Assembly (NCBI GenBank): GCA_015143735.1
Contig: VKHC01000011.1
Span: forward strand, 1-34,064
Direction: 5' to 3'
Source: Synura sp. LO234KE
Taxonomy: Eukaryota > Sar > Synurophyceae > Synurales > Mallomonadaceae
Length of the DNA: 34,064 nucleotides
Part shown: positions 2,734 through 28,652 of the stretch, one piece after another
Layout of the letters: each line of letters begins with the position of its first letter
Numbering within the stretch: position 1 is the stretch's first letter
Notes under the pieces: generated by a model
Databases searched by the model: none
What the model saw: only the letters and a program-made list of their open reading frames with translations
Told to the model about the DNA's origin: nothing
Program-made: the position numbers and the translations under genes

Positions 2734-5373
2734 CTACTTAAGCATCAGCAAGCCCTCCATCATAACAGAGCAATCACGCGGGCGCTCCGTCGTGGATAAA
2801 GATAAACATTTGAAGACAAAGCGAATGAATTTTCGCTTCAACTCTACGGGCCAATCGGTATCCGACTCCACACTATCTCCTAGCGGACGAGCTCGGGCGA
2901 CCAGTCCCGGGGGACGCAGACTCGAGTCAAAGGCGACACCAGTCCCTGTCACCAGTTGAAGTAGCACAACGGCCAAGCTGTATACGTCGGACATCTGATT
3001 CAGTTCACCGGTTTCGTTATACAACGGATCGAGATAACCCGCGGAACTGCTTCCTGTCGCGGCAACATCCGCATCTCGGGGGAGATGGGATGGTGTAGGA
3101 GCCACGTGGCCGTTCCCAGCTGCAGTAAGCACCACGGCGCCTTCTAGTCCGGTCACAAGGGCTGTGCGCCCACCCGCAGTACTAGTCAACAATATCTTTG
3201 AAGGGCGTACATTTCGGTGCACAATCACCCAGCGCTGACCGTCATCACCATCTATGTTCGTGTGGGGAGAGTGTAGGTGAGCTAATCCAGAACAGATATC
3301 CTTCGCAATTTGCAGTCTGTCCTGATAACCCAATTCAGCCAGAGCCTGTCGGTTACACAATGCATCCAATAAGCTGCCCCGGTCAGCCAATGGGTACATG
3401 ATACCCATACAAGCCGGGTCCACACACGCTGCTACCATCGGCAAAATGTTCTTGTGTTTGACTGCAGAGAGAATATGCATCTCGTGGAGTATCGTTTGAT
3501 ATGCGAAAGGCACACCACCGCCCGTTGAAGTGTCCGATGATACTGATATCGTTTTCACGACTACTCTATTAAATCGATAGGTTCCTCTGAAATAAGACTT
3601 TGGTTTGCGCGATGGGGCATCCGAAGAATCTGTAGCTCTGGAAGAGGAAGAAGCGCTCAGCTTCGCAGAGAAGTTGAAAGTGATGGACATTATTTCTAGG
3701 CGAGAGACAAGCACTGGCAGCTCGTTCACGGCGCTATTCTCTCGAGTGGCAGCTGATCCTCCTCCATGATTCGTTGGTGGTGGGTGTGGAGGGTGGACCT
3801 GAGCAAAGTAAACATCGTACAGGGAAGTGAAATTCATCCAATACCATCTTAATCCATATATTATTAAACGAATCATGACTACAATCACACAATTGTACCT
3901 CCCGGTCTCGGCCATTCGCATACGATCCAGAATCGTACTCGACGGGGGAGGACATGGATCGATCCAGAGGGAAAGGCAGGCGGGGCACGGGGTCGGGGGC
4001 AGAGACGGTGCCCAGGGAGGAGGACCGCGCATCCAGCATTCTCCCCATTTTCTCTCGTGAGACGGGTGTGCCGATGGGACTTTGAGGCGCGGTAGAGGGC
4101 TGAGACCTCGAGCCTCTCATTCCATCTGAAATCGCCAGAGAGGCTAGAGCAGTGGGTGTGTAGTCTCCTCCTCGCCCTTCCACGTCTCTCCTTGAATCTT
4201 GACGGGGCGTAGACTGCGGAGATCCTTGGGATACGGAGTCGCTTCCGTTCCCACCGCCTAATCCCTTTCTCACTGACCGCTCCTTTGCGCCGTCATGGCG
4301 TAAAAGAGAAGAACACAGGGTACAGTTAGACAATCATGTCATGGAAAAGAAAGGACCCTGGGAGAAGATGTGTTAAGAATATACCTTTTTCATTTTTTCT
4401 AGAAGATTGGCAGTGCTTCTAAGCGCCTATCAAGAACATGCACATGTATTAATCCAGATATGGCTCGTTTCAATACATCCCCATCTATAGAAGGTAATAA
4501 TTCTAGCGTTAGCTGGACGTACCCTTTCCCGTTGAGCCTGAGATGACAAGGATATTAGATTTTATCAAATCCTACTGGAGCGTTTGCTTACCACGAGGTC
4601 TACCAGCGTGGCCGATAGATTCGGATCAGTTACAAGTTGTAGCGGTGTATTCCCTCCCTGTACATACACGAGATGGAATTTAGGAAAATGGTTTAGTGAT
4701 AGATTTATAAATAGTTATTACGTTTTCTTTTATATTGACATCAGCCCCTTTCTCAACCAATAACGTAGCTACAGCCACTCGGTTGTAAGCACACGCATAA
4801 TGAAGCGCAGTGTAGCCGAGCTTGTATAGAAAGAGAAATTAAAATCTCGAAATTTTATCGAAACAGTATGTGATACATTATCTTGCACATTTACGTCCGC
4901 TCCCCTCTCAGACAGCATTTCGGCAACAGACACACTTTCCGTATCGCATGCTAAATGAAACGGACTCCACCCATTGCTTTCTCTGATATTTAATTCGGCC
5001 CCTTTATCCACCAAGAGTTCTGCGACATCCAATCGGCCGAAGGCACATGCATAGTGCAGCGCCGTCCGATATTTCTTCGGTATTGATTTAAATTATCAAA
5101 TTTAAGATTCTGAGATTTGTACCTTATCTTGAGCATTTATGTTGGCACCACGCTCTGCCAATGAAGCTACTACTTTAAAATTTCCGTGCACAGAGGCACA
5201 CAAAAGAGGGGTGGAACCTTTCTACATATGGGGTAAACGAAAACAATTTTAAATACTGCATTAAAACTCACGTTATTAACAGCATCTACAAGACTGGGAT
5301 TTTCCTTTATAATACTTTGCACGCCTTTTGTATCTCCCTCTTTAGCGTACTGAAATAATTTCGACACAGACAT
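2734..5373 (-). CDS. Ankyrin-repeat pseudokinase, copy A
   Basis: Nine exons: 5373-5272, 5221-5123, 5074-4877, 4820-4722, 4657-4592, 4537-4523, 4426-4385, 4282-3899 and 3798-2734, joining in frame to 689 codons. Residues 35-188 hold ankyrin repeats of the TALHYACA...LLVEKGADVN type. Then come a short helical stretch (189-207), a Ser/Pro-rich linker (about 208-400) and a kinase fold to the C-terminus. The fold keeps the beta-3 Lys (VVVK, K417), a helix-C Glu (HEMHIL, E441) and RLK/Pelle-like GYLDPLY (589-595) and DVYSLAVVLLQL (606-617). The glycine loop is absent. The catalytic loop HRDLKxxN reads HRNVRPSK (529-536), losing Asp, Lys and Asn, and the DFG position reads GLE inside TGLEG (551-555). 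Phosphotransfer is therefore unlikely; I infer a scaffold or allosteric role. The layout recalls integrin-linked kinase, but the sequence is not ILK. Confidence 0.9.
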
Positions 5374-8130: not shown

Positions 8131-9126
8131 TTAATCCCCTACTACATCCCCAAAGGCCTCAGGGGGAACAGGGGGGATACGCCAACGGTCATGACAGGTA
8201 GTAGCTAAGTGCAAGACTGCAGCACGGTGAAGGGACGAGAGGTAGCGTGTTACCGGCAGTAGACGGGGGTCCCGAAGACGGACCCGTGGCTCGCCGCACG
8301 AGCGGCGGAGTGGGTCCGAGGAGAAGGAAGCCCGGGGGCGCCGGGAGCAACGGGGTCGAAACGGAAGGCGGGCTACCGCACTGGAGGAGCCAGAGCGGCC
8401 CCAGGCCGCCAGTTGATCCGCCGCCGCATTTCCCAGTGCTTCGGGAGAGAAACCGCCCGTGTGCGCCTTGATCCAGGAAATGGCAAATGCATGATGGTCA
8501 CGGACCTCTTGAAGAAGGCGTCGGACATGCTGAATGAGAAACTTATTGCGGCGCGCCTTGATGGAGTTATCCCCGAAGTGGAGCACGCAGTACTCTCTGC
8601 CAGTGATCAAGTTGAGGCTTCGGCGAACAGGCTTGGAAGAGATCCTGTCCGAGACACGAATCCACTTGAGAGCATGATAAAAAGCGCTGATTTCACCTGT
8701 GTTGTTGGTCCGAGAGAGTGCCCCTAGCCAATCCGGTTCAGACCGGTCAAAAATCACGGGACCCCAGAGCGAGACAGGGGGAGCGGAGGCGCAAGTCAGG
8801 TACACCACCAACGCTAGCGAGGCAGAGCCGTCCGTGTAAAGTACCGCATCCGGGGAGGAGAGCGGGCTTTAGCCTAGGGTTACTGGCTGAGCGACGTAAG
8901 CTTCGGCTTTCTGATGGGTCTTGAACCACTTGAAATCGCTGCGAATGCCTATTGTATGTGGCTGGGCTTCTTTCCAGGAGGTGTAAACCCCCGAAACGTG
9001 ACCGAGACAAACGCCGTAGAACACTTTGGGTTCTTTGATGGGCCGAAGAGAAAACGGTTTATACTTGCGGTGTAGAGCGCGGAGGGTAATCGGGTCAGCC
9101 TCTAAACTGTTTTCCACGGCCTCCAT
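8131..9126 (-). pseudogene. Retroelement hybrid-binding domain plus RNase H, one in-frame stop
   Basis: Two open segments in the same reading frame, 9126-8872 and 8868-8131, are separated only by a TAA at 8871-8869. The first contains a match to the N-terminal RNA/DNA hybrid-binding domain of eukaryotic RNase H1 (also called viroplasmin domain): KVFYGVCLGHVSGVYTSW, a Gly nine residues later, then FKWFKTHQKAEAYV. The second is an RNase H with all four acidic positions recognisable: YTDGSA, NNTGEISAF, FGDNSIK and GNAAADQLAAWG, plus the usual His in KAHTGG. The reaction would be cleavage of RNA in RNA/DNA hybrids after reverse transcription. Apart from the stop codon this module looks fresh compared with the shifted RT upstream. 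It could be a host RNase H1 fragment, but related RNase H remnants nearby favour retroelement origin. Confidence 0.8.
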
Positions 9127-15497: not shown

Positions 15498-18086
15498 TTA
15501 CATCAAAATTGAGAGGCCCTCCATCATAACAGAGCAATCACGCGGGCGCTCCGTCGTGGATAAAGATAAACATTTGAAGATAAAGCGAATAAATTTTCGC
15601 TTCAACTCCACGGGCCAATCGGTATCCGACTCCACACTATCTCCTAGCGGACGAGCTCGAGCGACCAGTCCCGGGGGACGCAGACTCGAGTCAAAGGCGA
15701 CACCAGTCCCTGTCACCAGTTGAAGTAGCACAACGGCCAAGCTGTATACGTCGGACATCTGATTCAGTTCACCGGTTTCGTTATACAACGGATCGAGATA
15801 GCCCGCGGAACTGCTTCCTGTCGCGGCAACATCCGCATCTCGAGGGAGATGGGATGCTGTAGGAGTAATGTTGTCGTTCCCAGCTGCAGTAAGCACCACG
15901 GCGCCTTCTAGTCCGGTCACAAGGGCTGTGCGCCCACCCGCAGTACTGGTCAACAATATCTTTGAAGGGCGTACATTTCGATGCACAATCACCAAGCGCT
16001 GTCCGTCATCCCTATCTATGATCGTGTGGGGAGCGTGCAGGTGTGCTAGTCCAGAACAGATATCCTTCGCAATTTGCAGTCTGTCCTGATAACCCAATTC
16101 AGCCAGAGCCTGTCGGTTACACAACACATCCAATAAACTGCCCCGGTCAGCCAATTGGTACATGATAGCCATACAAGCAGGGTCCACACACGCTGCTACC
16201 ATCGGCATAATGTTCTTGTGTTTGACTGCAGAGAGTATATGCATCTCGTGGAGTATCGTTTGATATGTGAAAGGCGCACCACTGCTCATTGAAGTGTCCG
16301 ATGTTACTGACAGCGTTTTCACGACTACTCTATTAAACCGATAGGATCCTCTGAAATAAGTCTTTGGTTTGCGCGATGGGGCCTCACACGAATCTGTAAC
16401 CCTCGAAGAGGAAGAAGCGCTTAGTTTTACAGAGAAGTTGTAGGTGATAGAGAGTATTTCTAATCGAGAAAGGAGAACCGGGTGCTCTTGAACGCCTCCG
16501 TATTCTCGAGTGGCAGCGGATGCTCCTCCATTATAAGATGATGGTGCGATTGGGTGGTGGACCTGAGCAGAGCGAGCGTAGTGAAGGGAAGTTCACCAGT
16601 ATCGCAATATATGCACATATACGAAAGTGGTTTTAGTAACGTATTCTTCAAAGAAGATATTAGGTATAGAAAAACAAGCACAAGGGTATGTATCACCTCC
16701 CGGTCTGTGCCGCGGTCCTGTGACCCAGAGGCATCGACAGCGTAGGGTTCTAAAGATTCGGATAGACAGGGTACGGGGGCAGAGAAGGAACCCAAGGAGG
16801 AGGATCGGGACTCTGTACTGAGCAGCCTGCCCCATTTCTTTGGAGAGGCCAGAGTAGGTGTGATGCCACTTGCGCCCTCGTCAGTATCCATGCACGAATC
16901 CTGACGAGGCGTTGTCTGTGAACTTTCCTGCGAAAGGGATTCCCCACGACCAAATCCCTTTCTCGCTGACCGCTCCTAGAATCAGTCAATCGATGACAGA
17001 GAAAACAATGCAGTAATATTCAGTTTTAGGAAATGTATGGGGATATATATATGGGTCCACAATTGCAACTCTACAACATTTACCTTCTTCATTTTCTCTA
17101 GAAGTTTCGAAGTGCTAATAAGGGCCTGCGCGAAACAAGGTGAATGTATTCTACCGGGCAATATTGTGTAACCTGTCGACTATCGCACAGATTCCCTCCA
17201 TCAGCCGTACTTACCTTTTCGCGTTGAGCCTGAAAATATGGGAATCACGTCAATTTATCAATGAATAGAAAGAAATCGTAAACTGACCAAGATATCTGCC
17301 AGCGTAGCTGATAGCTTCGGATTAGTGATGAGTTGTAACGGTGTATTCCCTCCCTATCCAATTACCATAGCAATGAGAGAGGCATGAATAATTTTGTATA
17401 TTGATTATATAATTATTACTCTCTCTTTTATATTGACATCAGCCCCTTTTTCAATCAACAAGGATGCTACAGCAACCCTCTCGTACACACAAGCGTAATG
17501 CAGCGCGGTATATCCATGCTGAGACATCAATCACATTCAACACATATTTCATATCATAATAAAGAGCAATATACATACATTGTCTTTTATATTTACATCG
17601 GCTCCACTTTCAGATAACATTTCTGCTATAGCAAAGTTTTCTTTATCGCATGCTAAATGAATTGGAGTCAACCCTTCTCTTTCCTGAATATTCAATGCAG
17701 CCCCTCTAGCCACTAAGAGTTCAGCGGCATCTTTGTGTCCATAGGCACAAGCGTAATGTAACGCCGTGCGAAGTTTCTTTTACATTCATTTTTATTTCCA
17801 ACCTTTAGCAACAATAATATTTACGGTACCTCATTTTGAGCATTGATATCGGCACCACATTGAACCAGAAGCACTACTGCGTTAAATTTATCGCGTGCAG
17901 ATGCCCATAAAAGGGGAGTAGAGCCTTTCTGTAGGTAAATGTCACACTCAAAGTCGATTTTTTTGAGTATTTCGAACAACTTACACTGTCTAAAGAAGTA
18001 TTTAAGGTAAGTAGATTCTCCTCGAGAGCTTTTTTTATACTCTTGAGATCTTCATTCCTCAAGAGGTCGCAAAAAGATCCAGACAT
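15498..18086 (-). CDS. Ankyrin-repeat pseudokinase, copy B
   Basis: Paralogue of the gene at 2734-5373, in the same orientation 12.8 kb away. Nine exons: 18086-17985, 17928-17830, 17776-17579, 17518-17420, 17353-17288, 17229-17215, 17125-17084, 16975-16697 and 16562-15498. They join in frame to 654 residues. Every exon has the same length as in copy A except the linker exon, which is 279 instead of 384 nt. Ankyrin repeats (35-188) show TALHYACAYGHKDAAELL and TALHYACVYERVAVASLL. The kinase fold keeps VVVK (K382) and HEMHIL, but again has HRNVRPSK (N496) and TGLEG for HRD and DFG, so it is also a pseudokinase. The last exon is almost identical to copy A over its 3' half, whereas ankyrin and linker exons differ strongly. 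It shares a promoter with the SMC gene. Confidence 0.9.
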
Positions 18087-18235: not shown

Positions 18236-21200
18236 ATGCAGTCATGGCATTTGGCTGGACTGCATATTGAAAACTTTAAATCTATTAGGAAAGCGAATAT
18301 AGTTGTAAAAGGTCATATGCTCACCTGATCTATAAAAAATTGATCTTAACTACGCTTTAGATGGATTTACTATCTTACTTGGACCAAAGTGCGATACTTG
18401 CCCAATTACTAACATTAATAAGCTAATTTACATTCACATTAGCGGCTGTGGGAAAAGCAACCTTCTTGAAGCCATCGCATTTGGGCTGGGAATAAGTTTT
18501 CATGAGCTTAGGGTCGCTTCGCTTAAAGATATTTCTGGAGACACCAACCCGGACGGAAAAATTTCAGTCTCTCTTTCCTTTTCTAATAAAACTGCAACAA
18601 TAACACTTGAATCTTATATTTTGAATAACCAAAGAGGATATGTTGTCGATAATAACAAGTTCACAAAATTAGAGTACGACAATTTATTTACATTTACATT
18701 TAATACATATTTTGAGAAGAGGCTTTATTCTATTTCAGATTTTCTAATTTTATCAGTAGGACGCTGAATTTTCCAAGCGATTTCAAATGCTGGAACATAT
18801 CGCAATCCGCTGTTCACGAAATTGTATAATTTTTATTTTAGATTAATTAAATTATTTTCTGATATAGTACCGAATTGATGCTTAAGTAATATATATTTTA
18901 ATAATAATTTCTTTGAAACTTTATCCTTTCCTTGTTTATCAGATAAGCTCGCATCCAGATGCTCTATTCAACACTATATGCGAAGTATCGGGTACTAAAC
19001 ATCTGCTACTCTCCATGAAGGAAACTCGCGAAAGCATCATCCATTCAGCAAACGAAATACAGTCAGTGGAGATCGCAATCGATGTAATATGAGAAAATAA
19101 ATCTTGCTTGGATTTTGTGTTTAGACACCTTCAAAACCTACCAATACATATATTCATTCTTTACATCGGTCGTAAGATCGCTGACAGCTTAAAATGCATC
19201 CTTTTCAGAGTATTCGATCCGAGGTAAAGAAAGATGACCTCAAATTTGATCGATATCAAACTTACCAGAAGGTATGACTTCAATCACTACTCTCGAATCG
19301 AATAGTATTTGGGAGAAATGATACCATGCTCTATCTGAGAATATTCCTATTTCCCACTGTATTTATTCCGCTTTGATTTCGAAGTCGCATACAAGTCGTA
19401 ATTCCACACAACTTTCGCAACCAAATCGTATTCAATATATGAAATTCTGGAGCTTTAGTTCAGCGCTGCTGTTCGCCACAACTTTATTGTATCCTTTTTA
19501 CCTCGTTACATATCTGTCTTATTATCATTAATCAGGTACACGAAGATTTAAAAGGCTCCGTAGACAGAGAAAAAACTCTTCTGATTCTAGCAAAGCTTCT
19601 TACTGAAATAAAATCGCGGGAGTTGGCTGAGACATACTGCTCTACTCTGAATGATCGCTTTAATTCACTGCACACATTGAACCAACAGTACGTAGACAGT
19701 ACCGCTTATCACGCTACTCTGAAGCAAAGACAAGTCACGGGCAGAGCGAGAATTGAGTCGCTTCAGCGTCGGAGTCGTGAGTTAGTCCAGGAAAGCGAGG
19801 AGAAGCAAGAAATGCTGCAAGAGCTGACCGCTGAGAGAGGCGCCTATCGCGAGGAGAAGAGTTACGCGGAATCCGGACGGTTCGCGCTGGAGGGGGAGTC
19901 CAACGCCATTAATGCGCTGTACGTCCAACGTGTGGAATGTGATCTCCCCGCCCTCTGTGGTGAAATTGCAGCTGTAAAGGTGATAGTGCGGATGGACAAG
20001 TATCTGAGGGGATTTCATATATTTTGTAGTGATATGTTTATGGAGACAAGAAGTCTGCGAATACTGTAGTGGCAGACTCCCTTTCCTAATTCATGTCTTG
20101 TGACTTTGGAGATCGGCTCTCGTCCTGAGCTGTGATCTAAAGGCGGGACGAGCTTATCGAGGAGCTCACATGTATAAGAATATTGCTACTGTATTCGCTA
20201 CTGCTGCCCACGTAGGCGGATATGCGAAGTGCCACTGCTCGTACATCAGACCCACACGCCGCGCTGGAGTCGCTCCTGCAACAGAAGAGACGCGAGTTAA
20301 TCACGGTACACAATGCCTAGATCCCTGCTTTGATCAATGTCCTGTGACCGTACGCTGCTCGGTGTCCTGTGTCCAGCTGGAAGGTACTCATAAAAGCCGC
20401 GAGTCCGTGCTCATGTCCATAACGAACGAGGCGGCGAGGGTAATGGCCCGCAGGTCAGCGCTGAAGGATGAGCTGGACGCCAGTTTGTTAGAAAAGGAGG
20501 GTATGGAGCGGCAGTTACAGCGAACGACGGAGGAGAGGGATGCGATGCTGGTGAAGTTGCGTTCAGGGTTACTCGATGCTGACCATGTTTCTAGAGGTGA
20601 AGGAGGCAACGGTTGGCGTGGTGAAGAAGGTGAAGAAGGTCTACGTCACCGGCGGGAGAGGCTAGGAAGGATGCAGATTGAGGAAGGGAACGCGCGCAGG
20701 GCTCTGGGAGCGGTTATGAAAAGGATTGGTCTACCAGATTTATACGTGGCCAGCGAGGAAGGTGTTGATTTTGATGGCTATGTATGTCCCGGAGACTTGG
20801 GTTTCTTGGCCGATCATATCATACTTGCACCCTCTCCTATCGATCAAGGTTCGAGGAGAACCCCGAGTACCTCGGTGGGCACGGTGAACCACGCGATGCA
20901 GACTGTCATGGGGAATCATCTTCGCATCAGGTTATGCTCCAATCGACGAGTAGCTTCGACGATTTTAGAGCGCTACCAACGATTGGGATTGGAGGCTCGC
21001 ATTTGGCCGATTGACGAATTAAGTATTCCGCCGAGGCATGCCAACTACAGCGCTCTCATCGCCAGCCAGAAACATAATATTGCTGATCCGATGGACTATC
21101 TTACTGTTTCCGTTGCTCCTGGCATAGATACTCGCTCCTTGCAGCCCATGATACAGTCTTGTGTCCTGAAGGCTGTCGGGTCTTCGGTCATCGTGTTCGA

Positions 21201-23591
21201 TACCTCAGATGTGGACCTGGTCTTGAAGGAGCCCGGGGTTCAGTCATGTGTTACATTAGACGGCAATCTTCACACCAGAGGAATGCTACGAATTGTCGGA
21301 GGCAGTTACTCCTCCGCAGCCCGACCGGCAGTTACGTTGCTTGCTGAGTATCACAGCTCGTTGTGCTCGAGTCGCAATTCTCGAATGGCAAGAGTACAAT
21401 TGCAAGAAGCTGTGCAGGTAGGAGAATGCTTGCTGATGCTTTCGGGTAGATGGGATGAGGAAGAGCGATGCTTGAAAGACTTGGCTACAGTCTGTAGTAC
21501 ATTGCAAAGCGAGTACGATTGTTTGTCCGCCGAAGCGCAGAAGCAGCATCAGGTCCCTGTGCAGGCTGCAAGGGAGCGACTAGAGGCTACCGCTCGGGAG
21601 ATTCTTAGTGTTACCGAGGAGATACGCAGGTTGCAAGTGGGCTCAAGCAAAGGCGAGAAGGAGGAACTGGTACTGCAGTCGCATTATTCCGTTAAGCTGA
21701 GCCGTTTGGAAGCTCGACAGTTGGATCTCGAGGCCAGTGTAACGGACCTGACGCTGGAGCGCGAGCGTATAGCTAGAGCACTAATACGAATGAAAGAGTT
21801 ATGCGAAGATACAACCACATTACCTGAGCTGGATGCGAAGATTGCAGTATTGCAGGAGGAACTAGTGGCTCTACGCTCCGTACGCATTCCCGCTGTTGAA
21901 GCTGAGCGATTAGAAATCGAGGAATCACAGGTGAATCTGGAGCAGGAATTGCAACAGAGCTCTGCGGCAGCGCTGCAAATGGAAGGGAAGAGGGAGGAGG
22001 GCGAAGGGGAGTGCGCTCGTTTGTGGAAACTACTAGTGGAGACCGCGCTAAAGCTGGAAGACCAGGGAAGCGAGAGTTGTTGGTTAGAGGGAGATTGGAA
22101 GAGTGGATTGTTACAGTTACGAGACTCATTTGGCACTAGTGTCCCTGCTCATGTTTCTTCGCGTGGGAGAGTCTCGAAGAAAGGGGTAGGCAGCACCAAA
22201 TCCCACAAGACTGCTTCAAGAGGTGGGGGACAATCAAATGGTAGTGTGGTCGAGCACGTGTTGGAGATGACGGCGAAAGACCAAGACTCGTTGTCGATGG
22301 TGACTGTGTTAGAGTCTAGGGAAAGCATCTCGACTGCTTTATGTGATCGAGGGAAATGGTTTGGAGTCCGAGCTGAGGAAGGTAAGCAACGGTTGAGGGC
22401 CGATGCAGATACTTTTTTGGTAACACTATCGTCGGGAGGAGGATCTACCAAAACCGATGGAATAAAGGAAATGCTACAGCGCGTCGTATCCCAAGGAGAT
22501 GCGTATGATGTGGGCGAGATGTTGATAGCGGTTGAAGATTCGCTGGTGTCGGAGAAAGCCCTCTCGGCCGTGCTTTTGGACAAGCGAGTGGATCTAGAAG
22601 CTGCACTGTTTCTGAGTGATAGCAGCGGGACACCCTCATCAAAGAAACCGCGGGGCAGCAGCGGTAGAGGTGCAAAACATTTGGAGAGGAATGAGGGAGA
22701 GGGAGAGAGGGAAGAGGAGGGGTCTCGATGGACACAGATTGATGCCAAGATAAAGGAATTCCATCTCGCCCGTGAGAGGAAACGCGTTATGCTACATTCG
22801 TTGACGGAGAAGTGTGAGCAGGTAAGAAGAGTTGGCCTAAGGGAATGCAAATAAGATTGAGAGCGCTCACATATGACGAGGAGGATCTCGTAGTTGATGC
22901 TCTCGAACTACAATCTCCACAGAAAGCAATACATACTACTTGCTAATATCAATATCGCCTCTAAAATAATATTCTACACTAAACAATCCTATAACCGACC
23001 CAATCAATAGCCATTCTATTTCAGATTAAGCGTTCGGTGGCTGTGCTAGAATCGGGTTTGGTGGAAATTCACGAAATGACTAGTAAGATTCATGAGACTT
23101 CATTCGAGGCGGTGCGACAGCGTTGTGTTCGCTACTTTGAACAGTTGGTTCCAGGTAAGCGCGTAGACCTCGTGAAGGTCGACGAGAACAGTCTGGAGTC
23201 GAAAGGATTTCGATTTGAAGTGGAGTATATCGGTTTGGACAATGAGAGTCGAGGTGAGAAGGTGGGGACTGTCCGTGGCAGGAGGGGAGGACGGGACTCA
23301 GTCATATGCCGCGGTGTAAGCGAGCTGTCAGGAGGACAAAAAGCACTTCTCAGTTTAGCATTCGTATTTGCATTGGCAGTTCATCGACCTTCGCCTTTAT
23401 ATTTACTGGATGAGGTTGATGCTGCTCTCGATGAGACGAATCAACAAGCAGTAGCAAAAGTGATCGCCTCCATATTCAAAGACCGTCAAGTGATTTGCAT
23501 TAGCCACCATCGTGACTTCCAAACCAGCGCTATGCATTCCATTGTCCTTCAAATGAAAAATTCAGAAACCGTCCTTGTTCAACAGACTTGA
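18236..23591 (+). CDS. Divergent SMC-family ATPase
   Basis: Chromosome-structure ATPase with ABC-type heads and long coiled coils. Proposed exons: 18236-18311, 18361-18388, 18443-18673, 18739-18823, 18943-19083, 19209-19271, 19536-19999, 20143-20171, 20250-20305, 20377-22821 and 23025-23591, in frame to 1394 residues. Joins around 19999-20250 are the least certain. The start LHIENFKSI leads into Walker A GPNGCGKSN (33-41), built only after removing two introns. ISQSAVHEI is the Q-loop region, followed by the EVSGTKHLL signature. A hinge spans about 522-701 (VTLDGNLHTRGML). The C-terminal head has ELSGGQKALLSL (C-loop, about 1306-1317) and LYLLDEVDAALD (Walker B, 1331-1342). DEVDAALD and VASLKD recall SMC2, and IENFKS with ALDETN recall SMC1. 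Overall it is unusually divergent, so I do not assign a subtype. AATAAA at 23728-23733 may be its polyadenylation signal. Confidence 0.85.
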
Positions 23592-27687: not shown

Positions 27688-28652
27688 TAACCACCCTCCT
27701 ATATGTACCCTAGTAGGGCAAGTCCCCCGTGACCGAGTAGAGGGAAAACGGCTACACCCGGACTAAGGAGTTAGTCACCCACCAGGTCCCCATTATAATC
27801 ATGAACAGGGAGAGCAGAAAGAGTGAGAGAAAGAAAGCACGCCAGGAGACAGGTTGTTGGCGGGAGTCAAAAGGAGGCAGGCGAGGGTCTCGCCGAGGGG
27901 TGAGAGGGCGCTCCGACCGGCCGCGCGCCAGGGGCCCCTCAGACCGACACCGCGATCGAGGCCGGGAGGAGAGCGGTGCCGCTAAGGCCGAGCTCCGGAA
28001 GGCGAGGGCAGGGAGTCGGAATTGCGTCGAGAGGTGGGGGGCCACACACCCCCGAGCCGCGAGCTTGTCCGCTGCAGCATTCCCTTGGGCCAAGGGGTCG
28101 TCGGAGTTTGTGTGGGCCGGAGTCCAAGAGATAAAGATAGAATTGTCGCGCTTTACCTGGTCGAGGAGGGCATTGATGCGAGCGATAATGTGTTTGTTGG
28201 CGCGGTTTGATGGCGCGGGTCGCAAACAGTTTGAAGCAATAGAAACTGTCGGAGACGAGGTCGTAGCGCGGTGGGGAGGCTGGGTCGAGGGATTTGCGCC
28301 GCTTCCGGATCCAGTCCAGGGCATGCTAGAAGGCGCTGAATTCCCCCGTGTTGCTGGTGGCACGACGAGCACCCAGCCAGTCGCGTCCTGTAGGGGATGT
28401 AGAGTCTGGTCCCCATATTGCCCTGTCCCCTGGTGCCCGAAAAAGTGATGTCAACTCCCCATCCTGGAGAGCCGAGCCGTCAGTAAATATAAACGCTGAA
28501 CAAAATTCTTTAGCGACTCGTTGGATTGGAAGAGATCTCCTGCAAGAAAATGACATAGAAGGAAGGCTAGTTCCTAACGGCAAGTAGCGGAGCAGCAATT
28601 CCAGGAGTACGAAGCCTGTTGGTGAGGCCTGCTCATGTGAAGTGTTTGACAA
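27688..28652 (-). mobile_element. Retroelement 3' fragment with broken RNase H
   Basis: GC-rich minus-strand fragment related to the element at 7905-12283. RNase H words in order: FIFTDGSALQDG (first Asp), AIWGPDSTSPTGRDWLG, SNTGEFSAF (Glu), then TAG at 28328-28326 where the larger copy has Tyr (FYHALKWI versus F*HALDWI). VSDSFYCFKLF (Asp) follows, then a frameshift to IIARINALLDQVKR, ISWTPAHTNS (His) and GNAAADKLAARG (last Asp). All catalytic residues survive, so the nonsense and shift are the inactivating changes. The 3' region, about 27688-27800, resembles 7929-8160 but lacks its 111-bp insert. No RT or hybrid-binding domain is visible upstream, so it is 5'-truncated near 28652. Confidence 0.8.

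Follow-up and report, generated by a model that had tools for sequence, protein, structure and literature searches.

Introduction

The joining of ankyrin repeats to a pseudokinase is already known from animal integrin-linked kinase (ILK), plant ILKs (PMC5376563) and RNase L (PMC4718504); here AK1, a gene of the synurophyte Synura sp. LO234KE whose product carries ankyrin repeats followed by a kinase fold with lost catalytic motifs, is compared with these systems together with its paralogue AK2. Both genes lie in the window, the whole stretch of 34,064 nucleotides analysed, which is contig C11 (VKHC01000011.1) of a draft assembly of 8,092,067 bases in 549 contigs.

According to those parts of the cited papers that were available, the ankyrin domain of ILK binds PINCH and its kinase-like domain binds parvin, and the F-actin bundling activity of its complex is described as sensitised to Mg-ATP at the pseudoactive site of ILK (PMC6203859). 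The unusual conformation of TRIB1 is held in part by a Lys–Glu salt bridge (PMC4718504); maize DRIK1 has DLE in place of DFG and does not bind nucleotide (PMC7158045); and the kinome of Phytophthora infestans includes a TKL protein bearing 15 ankyrin repeats (PMC3019232). The open-licence papers searched yielded none on the AK1/AK2 family, and none in which ankyrin repeats are joined to a dead kinase of the receptor-like kinase (RLK)/Pelle/IRAK class.

The features described below make it reasonably likely that AK1 and AK2 are members of a conserved pseudokinase family of this class, joined to ankyrin repeats in AK1, AK2 and a relative, P0001, and working as non-catalytic scaffolds.

Gene structure and domain order of AK1

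AK1 occupies positions 5373-2734 of the minus strand as nine exons, all joined in phase 0 across introns with GT and AG ends, and its 689-residue product runs from ankyrin repeats through a linker to a kinase fold, in agreement with the location and product length given by an earlier, sequence-only reading of this DNA. In the splice model, exon 1 (5272..5373) contains the start codon and the first ankyrin-like repeat, which is partial, exons 2 (5123..5221), 3 (4877..5074) and 4 (4722..4820) encode one, two and one repeats that are also matched by Pfam, and exon 5 (4592..4657) ends the ankyrin domain with another partial repeat; by eye there are about six repeats, the outer two being partial. 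These are followed by exon 6 (4523..4537), whose five codons are matched by an exon of equal size in AK2, and by the 14 codons of exon 7 (4385..4426), which probably form a capping helix corresponding to helix 178-206 in the structure model of P0001. Exon 8 (3899..4282) encodes low-complexity linker, and exon 9 (2734..3798) contains the remainder of the linker, the entire pseudokinase domain, as also seen in a structure model, and the stop codon.

Pfam recognises both halves of the spliced product (Ank_4, 1.8e-35, in five stretches; Pkinase, 4.9e-14), and an NCBIfam scan gave only matches far below the cut-offs. No RNase domain was found by Pfam in AK1 or P0001, and AK1 ends with the kinase fold. 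P0001 itself is an EukProt predicted protein of 863 residues in which Pfam identifies ankyrin and kinase domains in the same order; 112 of its first 225 residues are identical to AK1 and, since it was predicted separately, it lends independent support to the AK1 splice model. The full-length model of P0001 has a mean predicted local distance difference test (pLDDT) score of 47.6 and a predicted template modelling (pTM) score of 0.31, so that it is usable in the ankyrin part only and permits no statement on the packing of the ankyrin and kinase domains; the AK1 linker is long and of low predicted order.

All kinase motifs reside in exon 9 (3798-2734), whose 354 codons and stop form a single open stretch. 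Hidden exons restoring HRD and DFG, an alternative raised in the sequence-only reading, are rejected, as both sites fall within this one exon and the introns of AK1 and AK2 measure 48 to 134 bases; in the relative P0003, HRN and GLD likewise share a single open frame.

A family with fixed replacements at the catalytic sites

The suggestion that two such genes in one window indicate a family is borne out by AK2 and four further relatives. AK2 (15498..18086, minus strand) has nine exons, a product of 654 residues and the same motifs as AK1. Exons 1-5 of its splice model lie at 18086-17985, 17928-17830, 17776-17579, 17518-17420 and 17353-17288, and exons 6-9 at 17229-17215, 17125-17084, 16975-16697 and 16562-15498; eight of the nine exons equal those of AK1 in length, exon 8 measuring 384 bases in AK1 and 279 in AK2. 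Three protein searches, each of which scored only about 8,000 candidates sharing most words and listed the best 120 rows, together gave 355 proteins, consisting of four family relatives (P0001, P0002, P0003 and P0240) and 351 others; one of the three brought no further member among the matches listed. P0002 (580 residues) and P0240 (316 residues) are ENA records, and P0003 (394 residues) is a EukProt entry labelled taxid 2988, corresponding to the synurophyte Mallomonas, with an MMETSP label that presumably denotes a transcriptome project. Relatives other than AK2 are 37 to 44% identical to AK1. Ankyrin repeats and kinase are found together in the three full-length members, AK1 and P0001 by Pfam and AK2 by alignment.

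The catalytic sites of AK1 are spread along exon 9. The place of the glycine loop is taken by a Ser-rich stretch (3619..3651, minus strand, as are all motifs given here) that is probably disordered, with a pLDDT under 50 for model residues 22-32, and no glycine loop is recognisable in AK1 in either the alignment or the structure model. The alignments further place the retained beta-3 Lys in VVVK (3553..3564), the catalytic loop in HRNVRPSK (3196..3219), where the Asp is changed to Asn and the metal-binding Asn to Lys, TGLEG (3139..3153) in the DFG region, and GYLDPLY (3019..3039), where the Glu of APE has become Leu.

In all six family proteins, the Asp of HRD is Asn, the metal-binding Asn of HRDxxxxN is Lys, the Asp of DFG has become Gly, with L or M in the next position and D or E in the one after, so that an acid stands two residues past the lost Asp, and the Glu of APE is Leu. 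The helix-C Glu and the alpha-F Asp are kept in all six, as are GY(L/I)DPL(Y/F), with the E of DPE changed to L, and SDVYS; AK1 and AK2 have SLAVV for SFGVV. With its kinase fold and losses among the beta-3 Lys, HRD Asp and DFG Asp, the family bears the sequence marks by which pseudokinases are recognised, and the fixation of identical replacements argues for the dedicated pseudokinase that the sequence-only reading proposed; no close homologue with intact motifs occurs among the six members seen. That reading is right about the losses of the Asp acceptor, the metal ligands and the glycine loop, to which the APE Glu is now added, and needs correction on the two lysines. What it called the catalytic Lys is that of the catalytic loop, which is Arg in four members and still Lys in P0001 and P0003 and thus falls outside the family signature; the beta-3 Lys that it described as kept is present in AK1, AK2 and P0240 and is Arg in P0001, P0002 and P0003.

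These replacements stand out against other kinases. In the 351 other listed proteins, the HRD column holds Asp in 312, Asn in 16 and no residue in 23. A MAFFT comparison of the six with 46 of these, picked mostly by length, gave 68 family-invariant columns, eight of which differ from the residue held by at least 60% of the 46; four of the eight are the HRD Asp, metal Asn, DFG Asp and APE Glu, and in the remaining four the family has A in place of G, D in place of E, C in place of A and Q in place of E. The DFG motif was read from this alignment because the automatic profile misaligned GLD, putting its G on the G of DFG in many rows; under either alignment, no Asp stands at the family's metal place. 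A motif scan of the 355 proteins for HRN or HGN with a later Lys retrieved, beyond the family, four plant U-box rows (P0032, P0059, P0092 and P0106), with HGN followed by SGVG, SGFG, SGFG and SDYG, respectively; this loss is separate from that of the family, since the two rows placed in the tree, P0032 and P0059, group with other U-box rows.

Kinase class

By sequence and fold, the kinase domain of AK1 and AK2 belongs to the RLK/Pelle/IRAK class, as the sequence-only reading had recognised. A family profile run against the sequences of solved structures gave 510 matches, the 60 listed being named as RLKs, receptor-like cytoplasmic kinases or IRAKs, except for a few with general names only; no ILK is among these 60. 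Likewise, ILK is absent from the rows listed by structure comparisons, which excludes nothing. Counting against this class, a single-sequence search has Raf-like CTR1 as the last of its 60 listed rows (7.2e-6).

In the tree, whose deep branches are weak (12/43 open) and whose taxa include no ILK sequence, the family lies among RLK/IRAK rows, apart from two kinases of the same genome labelled here as Raf/MLK-like. It adjoins the kinase of contig C182 (92/92), with a long-branch warning on account of which no sister relationship is claimed. The C182 gene encodes an RLK-like kinase with HRD and DFD and, by eye, a C-terminal RING-like segment.

Given this class, the layout shared with ILK has probably arisen by convergence. 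The independent origin considered in the sequence-only reading is thereby supported only indirectly, through the names of the matches listed and the place of the family in a tree of other kinases.

Divergence and homogenisation of AK1 and AK2

The two halves of the paralogues have diverged to very different extents. Over the 187 codons of the ankyrin exons, nonsynonymous divergence (dN) is 0.26 and synonymous divergence (dS) about 1.3, near saturation, giving a dN/dS of about 0.19 and indicating that the amino acids are held by purifying selection; over the last 293 codons of exon 9, dS is about 0.10. A low-divergence tract common to both genes spans 2755..3618 of AK1 (minus strand), with third-position differences in 18 of 288 codons inside it and 133 of 273 outside (a scan that omits exon 8), a contrast equalled in none of 200 shuffles, and exon 9 includes a run of 140 bases identical between the copies. 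Identity in the introns and in flanks of 500 bases ranges from 42 to 58% when global alignment is forced, with no unrelated control for comparison; as they are not recognisably alike, AK1 and AK2 do not represent one locus assembled twice.

The simplest reading of this pattern is that the kinase part was probably homogenised by gene conversion restricted to the pseudokinase domain. Such a tract suits a kinase module fitting a common partner while the ankyrin modules diverge; the conversion may also be a neutral accident.

Proposed function and alternative explanations

As non-catalytic scaffolds, AK1 and AK2 would hold one partner through the ankyrin domain and a second, most likely one acting in an RLK/IRAK-type pathway, through some face of the folded but dead kinase domain, the two being joined by the flexible linker. 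Phosphotransfer would be absent and, by analogy with Tribbles, the pseudoactive site may be closed by pairing of the Lys at the metal-Asn position with the acid of GL(D/E).

Several observations weigh against this proposal. The beta-3 Lys and helix-C Glu retained together in AK1, AK2 and P0240 are not needed by a pure scaffold. As for the closed site, TRIB1 keeps the catalytic Asp and lacks the helix-C Glu, and the Glu of its salt bridge precedes SLE instead of standing at the third position. According to the available part of the source, the Arabidopsis ILK1 pseudokinase phosphorylates in vitro, and a change of its HRD to HRN raised activity (PMC9403797), so that motif loss is no proof of inactivity. 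Within the converted kinase tract, dN/dS is about 0.45 on few changes, which by itself does not show constraint. The family is represented by no more than six sequences, and of the four relatives three come from unnamed or ENA-only records; the records of P0002, P0003 and P0240, which may be fragments or reflect a real difference, are without ankyrin repeats.

The retained residues suit a pseudokinase that binds ATP, perhaps free of metal, and whose nucleotide state tunes partner binding, which is a rather unlikely alternative. Besides the beta-3 Lys of three members and the helix-C Glu of all six, it can draw on the Lys at the metal position, which could bind phosphates, on the Mg-ATP effect described for ILK (PMC6203859) and on STRAD-alpha, described as binding ATP without cations (PMC4718504); it has to contend with the lack of a recognisable glycine loop, the beta-3 Arg of P0001, P0002 and P0003, and the absence of the DFG Asp from the whole family. 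Still less probable is an atypical active kinase that works via the displaced acid of GLD/GLE or with Mn. The conserved acid two residues past the lost Asp would serve such an activity, and Arabidopsis ILK1 is reported to be active with GFG and to prefer Mn (PMC9403797); the AK family has lost the proton acceptor and both metal ligands along with the glycine loop and the APE Glu, whereas ILK1, as far as described there, is altered in DFG and the glycine loop and still has the HRD Asp.

That AK1 and AK2 are a decaying gene pair or an assembly artefact, as a draft in 549 contigs and the close similarity of the kinase exons might suggest, is barely credible, given that both copies are open through nine exons bounded by GT and AG, that the ankyrin part has a low dN/dS and that four proteins of other sources carry identical substitutions. 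Assembly or pseudogene error as the origin of the altered motifs is rejected on account of the same replacements in the relatives, whose recurrence makes a conserved scaffold family likelier than a damaged gene.

Other kinases of the genome and neighbouring genes

When the exon 9 product was searched against the genome, five places were matched, namely AK1, AK2 and the kinases of contigs C182, C55 and C192. In a motif scan covering 64 loci, which asked for strings resembling both HRD and DFG and is biased to recognisable motifs in a perhaps incomplete assembly, HRN with GLE was found in AK1 and AK2 only; among the 13 other catalytic loops, the Asp is present in 12, as HRD or HGD, and the remaining one, on C55, reads HSN. 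With its intact DFG, the C55 kinase is another possible pseudokinase.

Ankyrin exons also lie near kinases on C38 (HGDLNPTN/DLD), C5 (HGDLKPLN/DLD) and C152 (HADINPSN/DFD); kinship of these genes with AK1 was considered and rejected, their motifs being of a different type by eye (judged without a tree). The kinase domains 3' of the ankyrin exons are at 1727-4000 on C5 and 1979-4252 on C152. On C5 the kinase is followed, without a change of frame, by a TIR domain (Pfam TIR_2, 1.9e-11), and C152 has a C5-like order by eye with no Pfam TIR match; ankyrin-kinase-TIR fusions may thus exist in this genome.

Back to back with AK2, the plus strand of the window probably carries an SMC-type gene at about 18440-23591; its C-terminal part (23040-23588) matches SMC_N (8.3e-24), a Walker A-like stretch is seen by eye near 18450, and the frame 20170-22851 inside it has no Pfam match. 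RNase H domains on the minus strand at 8131-8811 (2.5e-9), between AK1 and AK2, and at 27752-28372 (7.3e-5, just below the cut-off) are probably retroelement remains. A sulfatase domain, iduronate-2-sulfatase-like by eye, occupies 508-1527 of the minus strand (3.4e-30).

Comparison with known systems

The closest solved relatives of the kinase domain by sequence and fold, among the matches listed, are SYMRK, FERONIA, BRI1 and IRAK4, the best SYMRK entry being the D738N mutant. In nature, all four are catalytic kinases, the plant receptors having extracellular domains and IRAK4 a death domain.

With animal ILK, compared by description, the family shares N-terminal ankyrin repeats and a C-terminal pseudokinase (PMC6203859), and differs in its long linker and in a fold closest to RLK/Pelle/IRAK. 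The plant ILKs (Arabidopsis ILK1-3) are described as combining ankyrin and kinase with a degenerate glycine loop and loss of the DFG Asp (PMC5376563, PMC9403797); unlike the AK family, they belong to the Raf-like MAP3K class and read GFG rather than GL(D/E), their green-algal and moss orthologues and ILK4-6 are closer to canonical motifs, and ILK1 is active in vitro. RNase L resembles the family in its ankyrin repeats and pseudokinase (PMC4718504) and differs by carrying an RNase domain and binding nucleotide in the canonical mode.

Pseudokinases of the family's own class offer a different likeness. Maize DRIK1, like other plant RLK pseudokinases, is described as acting without catalysis (PMC7158045) but, compared by description only, is a transmembrane receptor of the LRR-VI-2 subfamily with no ankyrin repeats. 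The five IRAK-class proteins of the stramenopile P. infestans are all predicted to be inactive; in the available part of that paper, which is the sole basis of comparison, four have a transmembrane segment and ankyrin repeats are not mentioned (PMC3019232).

If the scaffold proposal is correct, ankyrin repeats and a dead kinase would have been brought together once more, probably independently, with a fixed rewiring of the pocket (the metal Asn replaced by Lys, DFG by GL-acid) whose likeness to Tribbles is convergent. It would then become testable whether kinase folds turn into scaffolds along a small number of repeatable routes. As plants and animals have RLK/IRAK-type proteins as their receptor and immune kinases, a dead member in a microbial eukaryote would bear on the other roles of the class. 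A more far-reaching view, offered tentatively, is that in this protist family, with its synurophyte member, an IRAK/RLK-type kinase was made a scaffold before the sampled lineages split, by one coordinated rewiring (HRN..K with GL-D/E) convergent with the Tribbles pocket and the ILK layout, and that neighbouring paralogues retain a shared dead kinase module through gene conversion even as their ankyrin modules grow apart to take different partners.

Tribbles proteins are not known to have ankyrin repeats and belong to another kinase group. The pocket of TRIB1 nevertheless shares with the AK family Lys at the metal Asn, SLE compared with GLD/GLE, and a degraded glycine loop (PMC4718504); all six AK proteins combine this Lys with GL(D/E) or GMD, the first place being G and not S. 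Since all six also have Asn for the catalytic Asp and keep the helix-C Glu, the family is not a member of Tribbles, and its likenesses to TRIB1 in the pocket and to ILK in the layout are not kinship.
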